DNA from: Acidobacteriota bacterium | GTDB lineage: Bacteria; Acidobacteriota; Terriglobia; Bryobacterales; Bryobacteraceae | Reading direction: 5' to 3' | DNA length: 64,000 nucleotides | NCBI GenBank assembly: GCA_026393985.1 | Contig: JAPKZB010000081.1 | Span: 1-64,000, forward strand | In this document: piece by piece, positions 8,814 to 48,863 of the stretch | Layout of the letters: each line of letters opens with the position of its first letter | How positions within the stretch are numbered: position 1 is the stretch's first letter | Notes under the pieces: generated by a model | Told to the model about the DNA's origin: nothing | The model's input: only the letters and a program-made list of their open reading frames with translations | Database searches by the model: none | Program-made: the position numbers and the translations under genes

Positions 8814-10798
8814 GCGGCCTCCTCGCGCGTCAGATAGCGCGTTGCATAGATCGATTCCGCAATGGTGATTGCGGCCAGTAAAAACAAAAGATACGGCCAA
8901 AGCGGCCACGGTTCCCGCTTCTGGCCCGCCGGCAGGCCTGCCGTATTTGGGGCGGCCTCGGCGACTCCCGTGGCCTGCCATAGGGCGACGGTCTCGGCGT
9001 CCACGCGGTCAAAATCGGATTCCCGGCGGTCGGCATTAACGGCGACGAGCGTCTGACGTCCGCTGCTGCGGCGGACCTCGTAGAAGCCTTCGTCGGGAGG
9101 CTGATAGCTGGTCGCCTTGGCCGCCTGGTCCAGGCTGAGCGCGCGGTTGCCCTTGGCATCGAGGACCTCGACGGTCACGGCGCGGTCGGCGGCCGCGCGG
9201 AGTTCAATGGTTTCGCCAACGGCTACGGCTTGGGTGGATTCCTCCTGCCGGCTCAGGTACTGCGCGGTGCGCTCCACAAAGGGCAGAAAGGCGGGATGGA
9301 TCGGCAGGTTATTGCCGAGATTGTCGAGGCCCGAAGCCAGCACCAGAATGCGGCCGTCGCCCTCCTGCTGTTCGAGCAGCACCGGTTGGCCGGACGCCGT
9401 CCGGGCCAACACCTTCGCGCTGCCCGGCTCGATTTGCGCCAGTTGGTAGAACTTCACCGTTTCGAGGCCCGTCATCTTCTCAATCACCGGGTGCGTCTGG
9501 TCGCGTTGGGCGACGGTGGCAAAGAGTTCCTTAGCGCGGTCGGCGAGGCGAGAGCCGCTCAGCGCCAGGCCGCTCACCGGCACTTTGTTCCCCACGGCCG
9601 TCCCGGGGCCAACCGCAATCAACAGATTGCCGCCGGTCCGCACAAACTCACGCAAACTGCTCTCGAGCGCCGGGCTGAGCGCACCCGGGTCGGCCAGGAC
9701 GACATAGGCGGCGTTCTGGAGATTGGGCAGCGTTTCCGTGGTGGCCACGTCGGCCCGGAAGGCGCCGCCGGCCGCTGCTTCGAGAGCCGCGGCGTAGTAG
9801 AACTCGCTGCGATTATCGCGGGCGTTGCGCAGGAGCACCACGCGGCGGGGGTCGGAGCGCTCGACGGCAAACCGCGCCGCATCGTCGAGGGCAAAGGCAT
9901 CGCCGCCGTCTATGCGCACCTCGCCGCGCCGCCAGCCGTAGGGGGTTTCCAGGCCGATGAACTCCACCGTGGCCCGCCCCGCGGACGGGATAGCCACATC
10001 GCGAGCGTGAATCTGCCGCCCATCGACCCAAACGGAGACCTTCTTCGTCGCGGCGCCCGTGTGCACGCTGGCCACGGTGGCCTGCAGCCGCACGGTCTTG
10101 GGATCGAAGATCCGTCCGGGCGTGCGCACGCTTTCGACGTAGAAGTTGGCCAGCTCCTTCGGGCCCACCTCATGCACTACCAGCTTGGCGTCGGCCGGCA
10201 ACTGGAGGTCGGCAAAGCGCCCCGGCAGCGAGCTCTTCTGCAGATCGGTGTAGACGTGGAGTTCGACAGGCGTGCGGTTGGCTTCGGCGATGCTGCGCGC
10301 GGTGCGGGCCAACTCGGCAAAGCTCGACCGCTCATCGCCGGGCGCGATGGCCGCGACGGCGGCGCGCAGGGCCGCGGGGTCGTCGCTGAGGGGCCCCATC
10401 TCACGCACGCCGGAACCGAAGCTGAGCACCTGCGCCCGGCCGGTTGCTTCGGTGAGCGCCGCGCGCTTGGCCTCATCGAGAGCCGTGCCGCGCCGCATGG
10501 AAAACGAGTTGTCGATGGCGAGCAGCTTGAGCCGCTTGCCGGAGACGATGGGCACGTTGCGGTCCAGGTAAGGCTGCGCAAAGGCGATAGCCAGCAGCAG
10601 GAGCAGCAGCAGCCGCAGGACGAGAAGTGCTATATAGCGCAAACGGCGCTGGCGGGTCGAGGTCATCGTCCGCTTTTCAAAGAACATGAGCGAGGGGAAC
10701 TGCAGCGGGGTGTTTTTGTGCTGCTGCAGCAGATGCAGCCACACGGGCAGCCCCAACAGAGCTACGCCGCCGAGAAACCAGGGCGCCAGAAAAGCCAT
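8810..10798 (-). CDS. BatA-like membrane protein with VWA domain
   Basis: 662 aa. The N-terminus (MAFLAPWFLGGVALLGLPVWLHLL, with NTPLQFPSLMFF and a second helix LLVLRLLLLLLLAIAFAQPYL) is the BatA/aerotolerance-regulator N-terminal domain. A VWA domain follows: LLAIDNSFSM carries the MIDAS DxSxS motif (D96, S98, S100). The middle has a GATase-like segment (LREFVRTGGNLLIAVGPG), and a C-terminal helix (PLWPYLLFLLAAITIAESIYA) anchors the protein. Its stop overlaps the DUF4175 start and its ATG directly abuts the DUF58 stop, so translation is probably coupled. In MoxR operons such proteins act with the ATPase in metal-dependent assembly or envelope-stress functions; the specific client is unknown. 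Confidence 0.9.
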   Translation of the reverse strand: MAFLAPWFLGGVALLGLPVWLHLLQQHKNTPLQFPSLMFFEKRTMTSTRQRRLRYIALLVLRLLLLLLLAIAFAQPYLDRNVPIVSGKRLKLLAIDNSFSMRRGTALDEAKRAALTEATGRAQVLSFGSGVREMGPLSDDPAALRAAVAAIAPGDERSSFAELARTARSIAEANRTPVELHVYTDLQKSSLPGRFADLQLPADAKLVVHEVGPKELANFYVESVRTPGRIFDPKTVRLQATVASVHTGAATKKVSVWVDGRQIHARDVAIPSAGRATVEFIGLETPYGWRRGEVRIDGGDAFALDDAARFAVERSDPRRVVLLRNARDNRSEFYYAAALEAAAGGAFRADVATTETLPNLQNAAYVVLADPGALSPALESSLREFVRTGGNLLIAVGPGTAVGNKVPVSGLALSGSRLADRAKELFATVAQRDQTHPVIEKMTGLETVKFYQLAQIEPGSAKVLARTASGQPVLLEQQEGDGRILVLASGLDNLGNNLPIHPAFLPFVERTAQYLSRQEESTQAVAVGETIELRAAADRAVTVEVLDAKGNRALSLDQAAKATSYQPPDEGFYEVRRSSGRQTLVAVNADRRESDFDRVDAETVALWQATGVAEAAPNTAGLPAGQKREPWPLWPYLLFLLAAITIAESIYATRYLTREEAA

Positions 10799-41982: not shown

Positions 41983-42074
41983 TCCAAATCCTATTCTTGC
42001 CCACGGTAGCAAATCCAGGTTACCGAGCGATGACGATTTCGCCGTCCGCGCCCCGGATCGGCCCGGGAATTGGA

Positions 42075-42080
42075 TAGAAT
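42075..42080 (+). promoter_or_regulatory. TAGAAT -10-like box (candidate leaderless start)
   Basis: TAGAAT ends seven bases before the ATG at 42088, with no Shine-Dalgarno sequence in between. It lies in the 105-base divergent region shared with the TonB-dependent receptor gene. Confidence 0.55.
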
Positions 42081-42087
42081 CACGCCG

Positions 42088-44013
42088 ATGCATCGATTCC
42101 CTGCCCTTGTCGTGCTGGCCGCTGCCGGCCTGTTGGCCCAATCGCCGGCCGTCCACATCAAGACCGCCATGCCGGCGCCGTCCTGGGCGCTGCTTGAACG
42201 CGAGCTACTCAAGTACAATTCGGAAGCCGTCGACCGTTTCGCCGCTAAGTACTACGACAGCCGCGGCTATCTGGCGCATACGCCGCGCTGGGGTACGCTC
42301 GACGGGCCAGACGACGCCGTCGAAACCACCTGGAATTGGACGCTGCTCCATGCGCTGGGCGGCGGCGACTCCGTGCTGCGCCACTACAAGCTCGCGCAGG
42401 AGGGCCACTGGAAGCAGTACGGCGAACTGCGGACCAAGTTGACGGCGCTGGCCGCCAACGGAGCCTACAAGCAGGAGTTCATCACGCAGTCCGACTGGTT
42501 TCACACCGCCGAAGGCCTGCGCGCCTTTCTGCTCGAAGGGTTGTCGAACCCCAACGACGCCACCTACCGGCAGCGCATGATCCGCTTCGCCAACCTGTAT
42601 AACGGCGAAGATCCCGACGCCCCGAATTATGATCCGACCAAGAAGATCATCAAGAGCATCTGGACCGGCAGCCTGGGCCCCATGCTGCGGAAGGCGACCA
42701 CCTATGACTGGGTGGGCGACCCGGTGCCCGGAACTTTCCATCTGCTGCACAATCCGGCCGGCCGCGGCAAACTGCTCGACCTGCAGGCCAACTACAAGAA
42801 GATGCTCGCCCACTGCGACGAGTATCTGGACAGCGTGGGCGACAATAATCTGAACTTGGCCGCCACCATCCTCGGGATGAACGCCTACATGCTGACCGGC
42901 GAAGAAAAGTACCGGCGCTGGACGCTCGACTACGCCGATGCCTGGAAGCAGCGTTCGATCGAGGCCGGGGGCAACATTCCGAGTAACATCGGCCTGGACG
43001 GCAAACTGGGCGGCGAGTACAAGGGCCAGTGGTGGAAGGGGACCTACGGCTGGAACTTCACAATCTTTGACGGCGAACTGGGCCAGATCGCCCACCGCAA
43101 CTACTTCACGGCCGGCACCTGGCCCGGTTTCGGCAACGCGCTTCTGCTGAGCGGCGACCAGTCGTATACGCAGGTGCTGCGCCGGCAGCTCGATAACCTG
43201 TACGCGCAGAAGAAGGTCGAAAACGGCCGCACGCTGCTTCCCCAGATGTACGGCGACCCGCGCGGCTACAAATACGATGGGCCGCCGAGCTGGTATCAGT
43301 TTGGGCCCAACCTGCACTACGACCGGCTGATGGAGATCTACCTGCGTTCGATGGACCGCAAGGACCTCGAACGGATTCCGGTGGCCACGCAGTTCCACCC
43401 GCCCGACCAGCCGGGCCGCAGCTATGGCGATCCGGACCGGACGACTTACTGGCTGGGGTATCTCGAAGGTAAGTTGCCGGACTATCCGGAGAAGGCCCTG
43501 CGGCAGGACCTGGCCCACGTTCGCCATAAGGTGGCCGAGTTCATGGAGGACCAGACGACGGCCGACTCCCGGCTGGCGGACTATCTGCTCGACTACAACC
43601 CGGCGGCCACGGCGGCGCTGCTGAATCTGACGGTCGGCGGTTACTTTGCCAATGGGCGCGTGTGGGTTCTGCACAGCCGGTTCCGCCATTTCGACCCGGT
43701 GAAGCGCCGGGCGGGGCTGCCCGAGGATGTGGCGGCGCTGGTGGAGAAGCTGGACGCGAGCAGCGCGACGATGACGCTGGTAAACACCAATCCGCTCGAC
43801 AGCCGGGAGTTGGTGGTGCAGGCTGGCGGCTACGGGGAACACCGGTTTGAGTCGGTGACGGTGAACGGGCAGACAACGGCAGTAAACGGGCCGGTGCTGA
43901 CGGTGCGTCTCGCGCCGGGGGCGGGGGCGCGGTTGCAGTTTCAGATGACGCGCTACGCCAACAAGCCGACGTTCGCCTTTCCGTGGGACCGGGCGTGGTA
44001 TCCCGCCAAGTAG
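42088..44013 (+). CDS. Large secreted protein of unknown function, possibly alpha/alpha-toroid
   Basis: 641 aa from ATG 42088. The signal peptide is MHRFPALVVLAAAGLLAQS. I do not recognise the family by name. The body is rich in aromatic residues and conserved-looking acidic/aromatic clusters (GTLDGPDDAVETTWNWTLLHALGGG, QSDWFHTAEGLRAFLLEGL, GWNFTIFDGELGQIAHRNYF), with repeated helix pairs that resemble (alpha/alpha) toroid enzymes acting on polysaccharides. The last 100 residues are beta-rich. Its divergence from a TonB-dependent receptor fits a role in polymer degradation, but this is inference. Its stop directly abuts the stop of the convergent TIM-barrel gene. Confidence 0.75.
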   Translation: MHRFPALVVLAAAGLLAQSPAVHIKTAMPAPSWALLERELLKYNSEAVDRFAAKYYDSRGYLAHTPRWGTLDGPDDAVETTWNWTLLHALGGGDSVLRHYKLAQEGHWKQYGELRTKLTALAANGAYKQEFITQSDWFHTAEGLRAFLLEGLSNPNDATYRQRMIRFANLYNGEDPDAPNYDPTKKIIKSIWTGSLGPMLRKATTYDWVGDPVPGTFHLLHNPAGRGKLLDLQANYKKMLAHCDEYLDSVGDNNLNLAATILGMNAYMLTGEEKYRRWTLDYADAWKQRSIEAGGNIPSNIGLDGKLGGEYKGQWWKGTYGWNFTIFDGELGQIAHRNYFTAGTWPGFGNALLLSGDQSYTQVLRRQLDNLYAQKKVENGRTLLPQMYGDPRGYKYDGPPSWYQFGPNLHYDRLMEIYLRSMDRKDLERIPVATQFHPPDQPGRSYGDPDRTTYWLGYLEGKLPDYPEKALRQDLAHVRHKVAEFMEDQTTADSRLADYLLDYNPAATAALLNLTVGGYFANGRVWVLHSRFRHFDPVKRRAGLPEDVAALVEKLDASSATMTLVNTNPLDSRELVVQAGGYGEHRFESVTVNGQTTAVNGPVLTVRLAPGAGARLQFQMTRYANKPTFAFPWDRAWYPAK

Positions 44014-44853
44014 TCAGCGATTGGCGCGGAACCGGTGCGCCAGATCGCGCAGATGCTGGCGGCCGCCCCGGGCCCGTTCGAGGGTCACGGCCGGGTTGGG
44101 GTCGCCGCCGATTTCGAGAATCATGGTGCCGTTGAAGTGCAGTTTGGTCAGGTGCGCTAGCAGCGCTGCCCAGTCGATGTCGCCCGCGCCGGGCGGCAGG
44201 TGGTCGTCACGCTCGCGGCGGTTGTCGCTGGCGTGCACCATCCAGAGATGGCCGGAGAGTTTGTGGACGACCAGCAGGAGGTCTTCGGCAAGGTGGGCGT
44301 GGCCCGTATCGAGGCAGATGCCCACGTCGTCGACATCGAGGGCGCCGAGAATCCACATGAGGTCGCGGGTGCGGCCGGCAAACAGATGCGGCAGCATGTT
44401 TTCGAGTACGAGGCCGATGCCCAATCGGCGGCAGTGGTGGTAGAAGCGGTTGAGGACCTCGACGGCGTTTTGAAGCCGGACGAAGCGCTCGTGCTCGGGC
44501 AGGATGGCCTGTTCCGGGCCGGGATGCAGGACGAGATACCGGACTTCGAGCAGCGCGGCCGCCTCGGCGGCTCCGATCAGTTCGGCCATGGCGAAGTCGC
44601 GAGAGGACTCCTCGAGCGAGGTAATGTCGATGGCCGGCGAAAACGGGGCGTGGAAGGAGTAGGCCTCCAATCCCAACTTATGAATGCGATCCCTCGCCCG
44701 CCGGACGGCGTCCTGGTCGTGGTAGTCAAGATGCGCCGGATGGGAGCAGATTTCGAGGCGGTCGAAGCCGCTGTTCCGGATCGGTTCGAGGCAGTCGAAG
44801 ATGCTGGTCTGCCAGAAGCAGCCGGTGGAAAGTCCAATGGCCCAGTCGCTCAT
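44014..44853 (-). CDS. Endonuclease-IV-like / sugar-isomerase-like TIM barrel
   Basis: 279 aa from the ATG at 44853, overlapping the upstream TGA (ATGA); a longer frame to 45291 is antisense-like extension inside the upstream gene and is rejected. It has no signal. The AP-endonuclease-2 barrel keeps a set of residues that lines up with all nine metal ligands of endonuclease IV: H68, H110, E151, D182 and H185 (LDTGH), H207 (WMVHASDN), D216 and H218 (DDH), E247. The same set with HLPPGxGDIDW also occurs in proteins called sugar phosphate isomerases, so a nuclease role is not proven. It is the last gene of the Hsp20/phosphoribosyltransferase/primase operon, which makes DNA-related activity worth testing. 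Confidence 0.82.
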   Translation of the reverse strand: MSDWAIGLSTGCFWQTSIFDCLEPIRNSGFDRLEICSHPAHLDYHDQDAVRRARDRIHKLGLEAYSFHAPFSPAIDITSLEESSRDFAMAELIGAAEAAALLEVRYLVLHPGPEQAILPEHERFVRLQNAVEVLNRFYHHCRRLGIGLVLENMLPHLFAGRTRDLMWILGALDVDDVGICLDTGHAHLAEDLLLVVHKLSGHLWMVHASDNRRERDDHLPPGAGDIDWAALLAHLTKLHFNGTMILEIGGDPNPAVTLERARGGRQHLRDLAHRFRANR

Positions 44854-46247
44854 ACGGTTCTCCTTGCTTGCAGGCGGTCGCGCAGTTCCGCCAGGTTCGA
44901 ACGGCAGTCGGGCACGCGGCAGTACCCCTTTTCCTGGTGCGAGACGCAGTTGAGATCGACGAGGGTGTCGGCGCCGGTGGCGATCATGCCGGCGAACAGC
45001 CGCGTGTAGAACTCGGCGCGCCAGGCCGGGTCCATGGCAACCCAGGTGCGTCCCCAGGCGTGGTCCTGGCGGTAGGCGGCGTGAATCCGCCGGGCGATGG
45101 CTTCGGGCGGCCAGGCGAGAGCGGTGAGTACGCGGACCACGTGCTGCAGGGCGGCCGGTTTCAGCAGCCAGTCGTTGGGGTGGGCGAAGAGCCAGTCGAG
45201 GCAGGGGGGCGCGCCGGGGATGGGGTCGGCCACCGGGCTGGGTGCGGCGGGCGGGGCCGCGGGCAGACGTTGCGCGAACGCCTGATGCCACTGGCCCAGG
45301 GGGGAGCCCTCGTACTCATCGATCAGCCGGTTCATGGCGCGGGAGAAGACGGGAATGCGCGTCGAGCTGCTTTCGGCCAGCGCCGCCACGCGGGCTGGCG
45401 AGCGGGCCGCCGCGGTGGCCGCAGCCGCCTCCATCGCCCCCCGCGGAATGGCGACAATCGGGAGCAGGCGCCGCAGTTGCGTCTCTTCGAGCCGCCAGCG
45501 GGGCTCGCGCGGTTTCAAATAAAGGCTGAACGGGATGCGGATGTGACGGGTGTGGAACGGGTCGCCGTACTCCGACAGGTCAAGCGAGATGATCTCGCGG
45601 CCCGCGGCTCCGCGGCCGACTTCGATCGCGGTGAGTTGCACGGGGAGGGTACAGTGGGCCATGGCCGCCTGCCGAATGCGGTGCGCCAGGTATTCCACCA
45701 ACCGGCCCTGCGCGGCGAAGGCGCGTCCGAGGGCGGGGTCGACGCGGTCCCCATCGGGTGAGCGTACCGCGGCGTAGCGCTCGGCCAGGGAGGCGGGCAC
45801 CGTGCCCAGTTCCGTCAACCGCCGGAAGGCCACTGAGGCGCGGGCGATGGCCCACACCAGATGGTAACCGCGGCCACTGACCAGCGTCAGCGGGGCGATC
45901 AACCGCTCGCGCAGGAAGCGCAAGGCGGCGGCCAGCACCGGCTCCTGCAGGGCGAAGACGCGTTCGGGCTCGGCCCAGGCCAGGGCAGGCGCGTCAAAAT
46001 TCTGGTATTCGATATCGAGATCGAACAGGAGCAGGTTCCGGTCCCAGAGCGAGCGTTCGATGTCCAAGCCGCCCTCAAGAAAGCCGGAGAGCGCGCGAGC
46101 GGGGGCGGGGGCGGTGAATTCGCCGCGGCCGTCGGCGCCGACGAGGTAGGCTGCCGTAGCGCGGCGGCCGGAGGATCGGCCAAGAAACTCAGCCATGCGC
46201 TGCCGGACGGCCGTTTGCTGATAGTGGCCGGCCGCCACGCTGGTCAT
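44850..46247 (-). CDS. Archaeo-eukaryotic-type primase: PriS-like catalytic domain fused to PriL-like four-Cys domain
   Basis: 465 aa. Archaeo-eukaryotic primase (AEP) motifs occur in order: LLFDLDIEY (motif I, D76 and D78), LVSGRGYHLVW (motif II, S124 to H129), IISLDLSEY (motif III, D223), and HTRHIRIPFSLYLKP, the counterpart of the RLxRLPxSLHxKTG segment of PriS. After a Pro-rich linker (about 328-346) comes a domain with PPCLDWLF (C349), a helical region, then LNCVSHQEKGYCRVPDC (C434, C443, C448), whose cysteine spacing recalls the Fe-S domain of PriL. It is probably a single-chain primase or primase-polymerase. It overlaps both neighbours by ATGA. No helicase or ligase is adjacent. I infer a repair or stress role. 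Confidence 0.8.
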   Translation of the reverse strand: MTSVAAGHYQQTAVRQRMAEFLGRSSGRRATAAYLVGADGRGEFTAPAPARALSGFLEGGLDIERSLWDRNLLLFDLDIEYQNFDAPALAWAEPERVFALQEPVLAAALRFLRERLIAPLTLVSGRGYHLVWAIARASVAFRRLTELGTVPASLAERYAAVRSPDGDRVDPALGRAFAAQGRLVEYLAHRIRQAAMAHCTLPVQLTAIEVGRGAAGREIISLDLSEYGDPFHTRHIRIPFSLYLKPREPRWRLEETQLRRLLPIVAIPRGAMEAAAATAAARSPARVAALAESSSTRIPVFSRAMNRLIDEYEGSPLGQWHQAFAQRLPAAPPAAPSPVADPIPGAPPCLDWLFAHPNDWLLKPAALQHVVRVLTALAWPPEAIARRIHAAYRQDHAWGRTWVAMDPAWRAEFYTRLFAGMIATGADTLVDLNCVSHQEKGYCRVPDCRSNLAELRDRLQARRTV

Positions 46248-46924
46248 CGGAGCTCCTTGCGACGCTTTCCGTTGGCATGCTCCCGGCCGACCACTTCGAG
46301 CGTGCGCATCACGTCGTGGTCGCTGACGGGCCGGAAATCGAGATACCAGTTGCCGATGGAGCCGAATGGCTCCGGCGTGGCGAGGCAGTCGTAGCCGTCG
46401 CTTTCACGCTCGATCCATTGCAGCGCCTTGTGCGAAGCAACCGGCAGAGCCACGCGCAGCGACCGCGGCTTCCGGGCGCGGAGCGAGCGCAGGGCCGCCA
46501 CCATGGATGACCCGGTGGCGGCGCCATCGTCGACCAACAACACCGCGCGGCCGCGGACGTCGAGTTCGCGGTGAGCGGGGCGGTACAGCGCCTCCCGGCG
46601 CCGGAGTTCCGCCCGTTCCCGGGCCATGGCGAAGTCGATCCGCTCCCGCGGCAGGTGGAGCGTTGCGAGCACCTCTTCGTCGAGAACGCCGGCCGAAGCC
46701 GTCACGGCGCCCATGGTCAGCTCCGGCTGCCAGGGAACGCCCAGCCGCTGCACGCACAAGACGTCCAGTTCGGCGTGGAGCGCGCGCGCCAGCTCCCGTC
46801 CGGCGGGCAGGCCGCCCCGGGCCAGCGCGAGCACGACCAGGGGTTCAGGCCCCCCGGCCGGCCGCACGTGGGTGGCCAGCCGCAGGCCTCCTTCGGCCCG
46901 GTCGCGGAAGGGCAGGTCCTCCAT
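46244..46924 (-). CDS. Phosphoribosyltransferase-domain protein (COG1926 type)
   Basis: 226 aa from the ATG at 46924, preferred over a GTG six bases upstream because AAGGAG lies seven bases before it. The type I phosphoribosyltransferase fold is clear: LALARGGLPAGRELA at the N-terminus and the PRPP loop VLLVDDGAATGSS (about residues 128-140). This family (COG1926) is often found near stress genes and lacks a defined base specificity. It lies 29 bases after Hsp20 and overlaps the primase gene by ATGA, so the three are very likely co-transcribed. It could supply or recycle nucleotides for the primase, which is speculation. Confidence 0.9.
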   Translation of the reverse strand: MEDLPFRDRAEGGLRLATHVRPAGGPEPLVVLALARGGLPAGRELARALHAELDVLCVQRLGVPWQPELTMGAVTASAGVLDEEVLATLHLPRERIDFAMARERAELRRREALYRPAHRELDVRGRAVLLVDDGAATGSSMVAALRSLRARKPRSLRVALPVASHKALQWIERESDGYDCLATPEPFGSIGNWYLDFRPVSDHDVMRTLEVVGREHANGKRRKELR

Positions 46925-46953
46925 GATCACGCTCCTTCTCGCGAACGGGTTCG

Positions 46954-47466
46954 CTAGGCGGTCTGTTCAATCGGAATCTGCCGGGTGTTTGGCTTCGTTT
47001 CGCCAATGGGAATCTTCACTTCGAGCAGGCCTTCGTTCATCGAAGCCTTGATGTTGTCGGCTTTGGCGCCTTCGGGCAGCGGGATCTGCCGCCAGAACTT
47101 GCCGTAACTGCGCTCGGAGCGAAAGTAACCCTCTTTCTCTTCCTTGGCTTCGAGTTTGCGCTCGCCCTCGACAATCAGGCACTCGTCGAGGACCTGGACT
47201 TTAATGTCTTCCTTCTTGAGGCCGGGCAGTTCGGCGGTGACGAGCAGTTCGCCGTTCACCCGCCGGCACTCAATAGCCGGGGACCAGACTCCCTGTTTTT
47301 CGTCGGCGGCCAGCCAGGAACGGTCCAGCCCGCGGGTCATCTCTCGCATCAGGTCGAAGGGATTTGCCGCCCATAGGCTCCCCCTGCCCGGGAAGGAACG
47401 GAACCAGGGATTCCAGATCGTCTCATCTGCCGGCGCGGACGCCTTGCTTACTTCTACTTTGGCCAT
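46954..47466 (-). CDS. Hsp20 family small heat-shock protein
   Basis: 170 aa. The alpha-crystallin domain spans about residues 60-155 (VTAELPGLKKEDIKVQVLDECLIVEGER, SYGKFWRQIPLP, NEGLLEVKIPI), with a C-terminal I-x-I motif (I164-P-I166) used for oligomerisation. The N-terminal arm is Trp/Phe-rich. It is an ATP-independent holdase in the cytoplasm. A strong ribosome-binding site, AAGGAGG, precedes the ATG by about nine bases. It is the first gene of the operon, and a sigma-54-type promoter lies about 30 bases upstream of its start codon. Confidence 0.95.
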   Translation of the reverse strand: MAKVEVSKASAPADETIWNPWFRSFPGRGSLWAANPFDLMREMTRGLDRSWLAADEKQGVWSPAIECRRVNGELLVTAELPGLKKEDIKVQVLDECLIVEGERKLEAKEEKEGYFRSERSYGKFWRQIPLPEGAKADNIKASMNEGLLEVKIPIGETKPNTRQIPIEQTA

Positions 47467-47613: not shown

Positions 47614-48681
47614 CTAGCGCAGCACCACGTCCCAGACCTTGGTCCGGCTATCCTTGCCCGCGGGGCCGCCGACGTCGAGGGTGACGACGTATTCGCCGGG
47701 CTTTTCGTAGCGGTGCAGGGGATGGCGTTCGGTGGAGGTCTGACCGTCGCCGAAGTCCCAGCGCCAGGAGGTGACGGTGCCGTAGGTCGCGTCCTCGAAG
47801 GCGACCAGGCGGCGGTCCATGTCGAGGACGGTGAACTTCCAATCGGCCTCGACGGGGCGGCGCAGGGAGGCTTCAAGCGGCATGAGTCGGAAGGCGACCA
47901 GATCGGAGGCGTTGCCGTACATGGTGGTTTTGTGGGAGAGGTTCCAGAAGCCGCGGTACTTCGTGCCTTTTTCGTCGTCGTAGTCAAGTACGGACCAGGA
48001 CAGGCCGATGACCTTGTTTTCGATTAACTGACTTTCGACGCTGCGGGCGGGCCCTTCATAGGCGGCGTAGTCGAAGGGGGTGATGTAGAACTCGAGGATG
48101 AGCTTGCCGCTTTCACCGGGCTTGAAGTTGTAGTGGTAGGCGGCGTTGGCGTAAGGCAGATTCTTGATCCAGGGCTGGCAGCCCCAGACCATGGTCCAAT
48201 CCTTGTTTAGGGCGGGGGTGAAGATGTGGTAGTTCTGAGCGTGGACGCCGTGGTAGGTGAAGTGGGCATCTTTGGGGTCGTAGCCTTTGTCGGGATGCAT
48301 GGCCTTGATGAAGGGTCCGCCGGAGCGGTCGCCGTCGACGACGACCTCGAAGATATCGTTGTGGAGGTCGCGGTGGCGGAAGTCCCAGTAGTTGTCGGAG
48401 GCTTCGTAGAGGAAGTAGAGGCGATTGAGCCCCTTGACCCAGCCGACTTTGACGCTGATGTCGAGGTCCTTGCGGTCGAGCGGGGTGTTGTTGATGGTGT
48501 CCTTCAGCTGGTCGGTGCCGATGGCATAGCTGGCCGGTACGGCGGCCCAGTCGTCGGTTTTGCCGTCGATGCGGGGGATCTGGTTGGCGGGGAACTGGTA
48601 GATGCGGAACTCGACGCCGGGACGTTCCAAGGCCAGAAGAGGCGAAATTGCGAAACAAACCCAAAGGGCAATCCTTGTCAT
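47614..48681 (-). CDS. Secreted CBM9/DOMON-like sugar-binding protein with PKD domain
   Basis: 355 aa from the ATG at 48681; a longer frame to 48807 lies in the intergenic region and is rejected. The signal peptide is MTRIALWVCFAISPLLALE. Residues about 30-260 form a CBM9-like beta-sandwich (PRIDGKTDDWAAVPASYAIG, LYFLYEASDNYWDFRHRDLHNDIFEVVVDGDRSGG). Residues about 270-355 are a PKD domain (SWRWDFGDGQTS, YEKPGEYVVTLDV). It probably binds carbohydrate at the cell surface; no catalytic motif is visible. A TACACT box ends seven bases before the ATG. It is divergent from RNase J across a 182-base region holding the DnaA-box-like array. Confidence 0.87.
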   Translation of the reverse strand: MTRIALWVCFAISPLLALERPGVEFRIYQFPANQIPRIDGKTDDWAAVPASYAIGTDQLKDTINNTPLDRKDLDISVKVGWVKGLNRLYFLYEASDNYWDFRHRDLHNDIFEVVVDGDRSGGPFIKAMHPDKGYDPKDAHFTYHGVHAQNYHIFTPALNKDWTMVWGCQPWIKNLPYANAAYHYNFKPGESGKLILEFYITPFDYAAYEGPARSVESQLIENKVIGLSWSVLDYDDEKGTKYRGFWNLSHKTTMYGNASDLVAFRLMPLEASLRRPVEADWKFTVLDMDRRLVAFEDATYGTVTSWRWDFGDGQTSTERHPLHRYEKPGEYVVTLDVGGPAGKDSRTKVWDVVLR

Positions 48682-48688
48682 GCCTGAC

Positions 48689-48694
48689 AGTGTA
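48689..48694 (-). promoter_or_regulatory. TACACT -10-like box (candidate leaderless start)
   Basis: TACACT on the minus strand ends seven bases before the ATG at 48681 and no Shine-Dalgarno sequence intervenes. Confidence 0.55.
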
Positions 48695-48740
48695 TGCCGA
48701 ACGGGACCGGCGCACCAGTTGGATCGGCCCGGTGGAGGCA

Positions 48741-48794
48741 CACTCCACATCTTATCCACATATATTCCACAAGGACTTTCACAGCTTTTCCACA
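48741..48794 (+). promoter_or_regulatory. Phased array of five DnaA-box-like nonamers
   Basis: Five nonamers in the same orientation start at 48741, 48752, 48763, 48775 and 48786, that is 11, 11, 12 and 11 bases apart: CACTCCACA, TTATCCACA, TATTCCACA, ACTTTCACA and TTTTCCACA. TTATCCACA is the canonical DnaA box and TTTTCCACA fits TTWTNCACA. The array ends 69 bases before the RNase J start codon. It could regulate rnj or the divergent gene through DnaA, or titrate or load DnaA. The repeat phasing of one helical turn argues for cooperative binding on one face. Confidence 0.6.
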
Positions 48795-48863
48795 AGCGGT
48801 AGGGCACGGCGACGCCCCCTACGCGCCCGGGGTGCTACTCTAGGGCTAGCGATTTCTCCATCT

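Follow-up and report, generated by a model that had tools for sequence, protein, structure and literature searches.

A PriS-like protein with a likely PriL-type cysteine domain and its endonuclease IV-like partner in Acidobacteriota

What might a single-chain, primase-like protein be doing among stress genes in a bacterial genome? The question is raised by a stretch of 64,000 nucleotides (called the window here) from an Acidobacteriota bacterium of the Bryobacteraceae (assembly GCA_026393985.1, contig JAPKZB010000081.1), in which an earlier note had described one gene, here called P, as a primase resembling PriS fused to the iron-sulphur (Fe-S) domain of PriL. That note overlooked the gene directly downstream of P, here called T, which is paired with P elsewhere too. 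The explanation favoured here, which we hold with about as much belief as doubt, is that P and T form a stress-linked polymerase-nuclease pair that repairs abasic sites or short gaps, P being a primase-polymerase of the archaeo-eukaryotic primase (AEP) type with a PriL-type domain of four cysteines, probably of the Fe-S kind.

Gene P and its coupled neighbour T

44850..46247, minus strand: gene P, coding for an AEP-like protein of 465 aa with four cysteines in its C-terminal domain
44014..44853, minus strand: gene T (P0002, 279 aa), coding for a xylose-isomerase-like TIM barrel with the metal-ligand positions of endonuclease IV (EndoIV)

The open reading frame (ORF) of P lies where the earlier note put it, with its ATG starting at 46247 and its stop codon at 44850-44852, and the residues quoted there (D76, D78, S124-H129, D223, C349, C434, C443 and C448) are found at those positions. 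P is a real gene and not a chance ORF, since open homologues in other genomes span its full length and it is under purifying selection, with ratios of nonsynonymous to synonymous substitution rates (dN/dS) of 0.13-0.31 (seven pairs, some of them with saturated dS). Five unrelated Pfam families matched P at E 0.025 at best, which is chance level, as are the matches of P or of its 8- and 16-row profiles to XopAE (E 0.19), Lap (E 0.055) and Rpo1N (E 0.55).

The start of T overlaps the stop of P in a 4-base ATGA, and T is found directly after P at 20 of the 22 loci where that place is visible (the window, L002, L003, L030, L031, L033, L034, L035, L038-L043, L060-L064 and L066); L036, L044 and L067 end before the expected place of T. 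The two loci with no T beside P are L065, a second copy in genome G825, and the broken copy L037. Among 150 genomes of the window's family, T was detected at E<=1e-30 (a limit of our choosing) in seven, which are exactly the seven with a non-remnant P, counts that ignore shared ancestry. Trees of P and T from 16 loci have 10 of 13 splits in common, with a distance correlation of 0.89, and dN/dS of T is 0.04-0.09 (six pairs).

All ten T members scanned match PF01261. T shares the TIM barrel with EndoIV (Nfo), and in an alignment with the canonical Nfo of its own genome nine positions coincide (H68, H110, E151, D182, H185, H207, D216, H218 and E247), which we take to be the three-metal ligands of EndoIV. 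Across 16 T sequences these positions show two single exceptions, Q68 in L040 and Q207 in L064. The pattern is also carried, in the printed alignments, by MJ1311 and TTHB071. Several results weigh against a simple EndoIV assignment: T scores 27.1 bits against the Nfo model (TIGR00587), far below the curated cut-off of 129.65, for which reason it is not filed as Nfo; the genome already carries a canonical Nfo; the best relative of T in the PDB is the uncharacterised MJ1311 (4e-33), for which the literature search found no paper; and ketose epimerases (from 6e-11) score close to EndoIV, the next PDB relatives after MJ1311 being TTHB071, probable endonuclease 4 (1.4e-12). Judged by its predicted site T is EndoIV-like, and judged by score it is not a member of the Nfo family.

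The two halves of P

45438..46070, minus strand: PriS-like part, about residues 60-270 of P, from the profile score against archaeal PriS (aligned stretch, residues 64-133)
46008..46022, minus strand: motif I region, residues 76-80 (D76, D78, E80), with D78 and E80 conserved and a register against PriS
45861..45878, minus strand: motif II, SGRGYH, residues 124-129, with H129 conserved and aligned with GRGYH of PriS
45513..45599, minus strand: motif III region, residues 217-245 (GRE, D223, RxxRxPFSxYxK), with D223 conserved and aligned with motif III of phage primases
44883..45215, minus strand: likely PriL-like C-terminal domain, residues 345-455 (C349, C434, C443, C448), from cysteine conservation, register with phage primases and a signature

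The AEP motifs are worded in PMC5862659 as hhhDhD/E for motif I, sxH for motif II and hD/E for motif III, and P agrees with all three. Among 18 aligned P members, which leave out the fragments and broken copies L035, L036, L037, L043, L044, L066 and L067, position 78 is D in 17 and E in one, position 80 holds E or D in 17, the histidine at 129 is kept in 17 and D223 in all 18, in register with the phage primases; motifs II and III thus hold as they had been proposed (SGRGYH, D223). The proposed motif I, FDLD with D76 and D78, fares less evenly: D78 is conserved and FDLD of PriS aligns there, but D76 is D in just 9/18 members, with E80 conserved instead. Since both are conserved, D78 and E80 look the likelier metal pair, even though the PriS register puts FDLD on D76/D78.

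The relationship of P to known AEPs is detectable in profile comparisons. Against two archaeal PriS, residues 1-270 reach a score of 32.8, higher than any of 150 shuffles (maximum 22.9) and double the best decoy among 26 families (16.6); the P family profile against those decoy families themselves reaches at most 22.0. In this alignment (P residues 64-133) SGRGYH falls on GRGYH of PriS and FDLD of PriS on D76-D78. The N-terminal part of P is supported as PriS-like, as the earlier note had it.

A second comparison used a 53-row profile of phage primases, made of 47 non-redundant sequences out of 79 extracted proteins plus six phage proteins. A scan of viral sequences with five phage primases had returned 130 relatives, of which 80 loci were kept. 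The references found with a bait were gp40 of Thermus phage P23-45, a primase from a halovirus that is annotated PriS-PriL, and a plasmid of Methanosphaera that carries both PriS and PriL; the fetched references SHOU24, VP505, Lana, HCTV-16 and HVTV-1 were left out of the profile. The 18-row P profile scores 31.2 against it when trimmed (maximum of 300 column shuffles, 21.9) and 35.6 untrimmed, and residues 1-270 of P score 26.9 against its N-terminal part, which none of 150 shuffles equals (best decoy 25.9); the alignments run from motif III (D223) onward. The PriS comparison is the clear one, and the phage comparisons exceed the decoys slightly or tie with them. Single comparisons that preceded the deep profile gave weak scores (E 0.0093, 0.36 and 0.0031, then 0.02, 0.00031, 0.0015 and 0.021). 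Global-mode hhalign proved unstable (E 1.8e-5 with the full alignment vs 0.94 when trimmed) and is not used as support.

In the C-terminal half, C349 and C443 are cysteine in 18/18 P members and C434 and C448 in 17/18, so that the survey of orthologues suggested in the earlier note finds each of the four kept in 17 or 18, with PriL spacing in 17 of the 18. A signature of this spacing (PxC, 60-100 residues, C-x8-C-x3-5-C), written after both families had been seen, occurs in 17 of 18 P members, in S. solfataricus PriL and in 22/53 phage proteins, compared with 0/1784 control frames (six-frame ORFs of at least 150 aa, not proven genes) and 1/20,000 shuffles. The P family C-terminus scores 25.65 against the C-terminal domain of the phage primases, with the four cysteines in register, a score reached by 0/150 shuffles and tied by the best decoy among 26 families (25.66); where that decoy matches the phage profile as a whole, the printed match spans 26 columns and leaves out the four cysteines. 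The phage domain in turn resembles PriL: against S. solfataricus PriL it gives E 5.8e-9, the four cysteines being aligned, and another comparison gives E 0.017; two of three phage proteins pass the PriCT_1 cut-off, and all three match PF04104 below its cut-off.

The decoy tie just given is one of several results that go against this two-part assignment of P. Direct comparisons of P with PriL are not significant (8/150 shuffles as good; E 0.1), the PriL reference set in the shuffle comparison being small and badly aligned. L039 (4741-6198), a P homologue that is otherwise intact and has its T, lacks C434 and C448, and translating 270 bases at the 3' end of that gene in the three forward frames does not bring the cysteine pattern to light. 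In L041 H129 is replaced by Q, a change in motif II that is reported for PolpTN2 too (PMC5862659). The whole-protein score against the phage profile (31.2) lies slightly above the best decoy, decoys reaching 28.4 through short matches. Searches with the single P sequence in Pfam, NCBIfam, PHROGs and the PDB gave no match naming P, and a 16-row P profile found no chain in the PDB. The PriL-like Fe-S half described in the earlier note is thus moderately supported: it is borne out in its cysteine pattern and in the comparison with shuffles, and falls short in the decoy and direct PriL comparisons; from the sequence evidence, the C-terminus is likely a PriL-type Fe-S domain.

P has no match to LigD_Prim-Pol (PF21686) and falls outside the LigD/LigC Prim-Pol group. 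It also falls outside the PrimPol-PV1 supergroup, defined by mobile-element encoding and a PriCT domain: no viral, plasmid or phage relative and no PriCT match in Pfam was found for it.

Genomic setting and distribution

46244..46930, minus strand: gene with a phosphoribosyltransferase domain (PF00156), whose stop overlaps the start of P (ATGA)
46954..47466, minus strand: Hsp20 small heat-shock gene (PF00011), head of the cluster

P lies in a compact minus-strand cluster in the order Hsp20, phosphoribosyltransferase, P and T, with 4-base ATGA overlaps at the junctions on either side of P, and the description of the place as a stress-type operon proved apt, given the two genes directly upstream. 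Of 25 primase regions, 19 have at least one of Hsp20, phosphoribosyltransferase, OsmC and Usp within 6 kb, as against 1 of 34 controls; in a reduced set the figure is 11 of 14. Because the stress-gene queries were taken from the primase loci themselves, this test favours those loci; the 25 regions include L036, L044 and L067, each the other half of a contig-split gene, and L064 and L065 from one genome. The controls, mostly contig starts, are those 34 of 40 stretches that reach 11,000 bases; they come from eight of the same genomes and have a mean length of 12.0 kb against 9.6 kb for the primase regions.

The absence of helicase, integrase, Ku or LigD neighbours, on which the earlier note had remarked, was upheld: a Pfam scan of ten proteins encoded in the window at 36.9-53.9 kb gave no helicase, integrase, transposase or ligase model (one protein had no match of any kind), and the whole genome (97.9% complete) yielded neither LigD Prim-Pol nor Ku. 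A chromosomal-looking and stress-linked setting of P is supported.

The neighbourhoods show some further features. In L041 an OsmC-like gene (9451-9882, minus strand) stands directly before P, at the place that the phosphoribosyltransferase gene holds in the window; OsmC-like genes occur near P in the distant lineages, by sequence search also in L037, L042 and L060-L063. Upstream of Hsp20 in the window lies a gene for a PKD-domain protein (47614-48807, minus strand), kept there in L002, L003, L030 and L031. Beside T an ORF of 647 aa on the plus strand (42070-44013) has no Pfam match, and its relatives stand beside the pair in L002, L003, L030 and L031.

P is patchily distributed in Acidobacteriota. 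Across the phylum a profile search found it in 6 of 396 sampled genomes (a repeat search gave the same count), in 7 of 399 genomes of the class, in 9 of 193 of the class of G607 and in 1 of 18 of the order of G686, samples that overlap one another. A search with P itself matched 9 of the 150 genomes of the window's family, two of them with remnants: G112, where nine stops interrupt the match, and G040 (two stops, E 5.8e-4). The total is 20 genomes with an open or contig-split gene, to which the broken G112 copy and the G040 remnant are added. Two of the P-bearing genomes, G135 and G004, were placed in the window's own genus by genome search, and among relatives the identity to P drops to about 30%. 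A single-protein scan of genome contigs, which extends to other phyla and detects close relatives only, gave three P loci in metagenome-assembled genomes of Acidobacteriaceae, Bryobacteraceae and Candidatus Sulfopaludibacter; the profile searches covered Acidobacteriota. No relative of P was found in sequence searches of viral contigs, plasmids and phages, and a mobile origin of P was set aside on that result.

Some copies have diverged or decayed. G825, one of the 20 genomes, holds two divergent P copies (L064 and L065), both of which have lost the GRE motif; L065 (8455-9822, minus strand), the copy with no adjoining T, has also lost the acid E80 of motif I, with L at that position. In G112 the broken P (L037/L011, contig C49, about 1.7-2.4 kb) has many stops and lies between Usp and OsmC genes with no T beside it, so that at this place the decay of P goes with the absence of T.

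Proposed gap repair and its alternatives

By analogy with mycobacterial Prim-PolC and LigC, T would make or clean a gap that P fills. In the order of steps that we infer, T, acting as a nuclease, would cut abasic or oxidised sites or clean blocked 3' ends and so leave a 3'-OH beside a short gap; P, as a polymerase that may physically interact with T, would extend this 3'-OH across the gap while its C-terminal domain, with a presumed Fe-S cluster, holds the template and the downstream 5' phosphate; and a general ligase would seal the nick. The working precedent for excision repair of this type is Prim-PolC with LigC and EndoIV (PMC5663958). Its likeness to the P-T pair lies in an AEP polymerase that works with EndoIV on base excision repair, under stationary-phase or oxidative-stress conditions. 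The window's genome differs from it in having no LigD Prim-Pol or Ku and no ligase recognised in the gene unit, P differs in its PriL-like four-cysteine domain, and here the EndoIV-like gene is a coupled neighbour. That no ligase gene was recognised adjoining the P-T pair speaks against gap repair. A more specific version, possible but in our view doubtful, would make the pair an Acidobacteriota two-protein machine for abasic-site or gap repair, in which an AEP polymerase uses a PriL-type 4Fe-4S domain as end-recognition or redox switch and works with a dedicated EndoIV-like nuclease, both encoded with stress genes; a PriS-PriL-like enzyme would then serve repair where replication uses other enzymes.

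The main alternative to gap repair is that P is a repriming or translesion primase-polymerase (cf. PrimPol, PolpTN2) that restarts stalled replication under stress, T having a separate clean-up role. The phage relatives that have the layout of P are annotated as primases, PolpTN2, a PriS-PriL fusion, both primes and polymerises (PMC3973330), and the PriL-type domain is known from primer synthesis. We nevertheless think repriming rather unlikely, because the EndoIV-like T stands directly after P in 20 loci and has the same distribution among genomes, and this adjacency and common distribution fit excision repair better than priming. It is distinctly less probable that T is a sugar isomerase or epimerase and the pair part of a metabolic or RNA-repair stress response, in which P might act on RNA or as a nucleotidyl transferase. 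PF01261 does hold many sugar isomerases, the profile of T matches ketose epimerases nearly as well as EndoIV (with MJ1311 best), and an RtcB RNA ligase gene lies near one locus; but in the printed alignments the D-x-H pair of T, MJ1311, TTHB071 and EndoIV (5zhz) is missing from the epimerases 3vnk and 3vni, and all nine ligand positions of T align with the genome's own Nfo. That RtcB gene (PF01139), a possible hint of RNA repair, is just upstream of P in L034 (9727-11157, minus strand).

That P and T are carried along by, or left behind from, a mobile element or a defence island seems very improbable. The patchy distribution (6/396; 9/193) and the occurrence of the P layout in phages would suit such an origin, but the searches of viral contigs, plasmids and phages gave no relative of P, no defence model was found for P and a weak one only for T (E 0.0013), and the gene order around P is common to the window, L002 and L003.

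AEPs are known in bacterial non-homologous end joining and base excision repair, mobile-element AEPs are known with PriCT domains, and PriS-PriL fusions are known from plasmids or viruses. The open-access literature searched showed no AEP-like protein that has both a PriL-like cysteine domain and an EndoIV-like partner in its operon. PMC5862659 describes PriL as almost confined to the primases that replicate chromosomes, and PriCT domains as a feature of mobile-element AEPs only; a bacterial AEP that carries a cysteine domain of the PriL type and sits in a unit of stress genes, with no signs of a mobile element, would stand outside both groups. Through its coupling to an EndoIV-like gene, what the PriL-type domain does outside primer synthesis can be tested directly, and a route of excision repair that uses neither Ku/LigD nor a LigC-linked operon could come to light.

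Three known systems resemble P in its domain make-up. PolpTN2 of plasmid pTN2 has PriS-like and PriL-like parts and four cysteines in one chain, and its properties change once the PriL-like part is removed (PMC3973330). Unlike P, it is an archaeal plasmid replication protein with residue numbers to 923 (from truncation names, PMC3973330) against 465 in P, and it also has PriCT-1 and a winged-helix domain (PMC5862659). Cellular PriS and PriL share with P the register of motifs I and II and the cysteine spacing, respectively, but are two subunits in archaea and eukaryotes; the Pfam model PF04104 finds nothing in the window's genome. The phage primases of phrog_16345 (Thermus phage P23-45 gp40, Moorella phage MTATph1 and Bacillus phage KLEB27-3) are collinear with P, sharing the order motif III, PPC, C, GxC, C and a PriL-like C-terminus; unlike P, which has no PHROGs match, they are phage genes, some of them beside DnaB helicase genes. 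An AEP part is combined with a PriL-like four-cysteine domain in the phage primases L046, L075, L077 and L078 and at the viral loci L085-L163, the three scanned belonging to phrog_16345.

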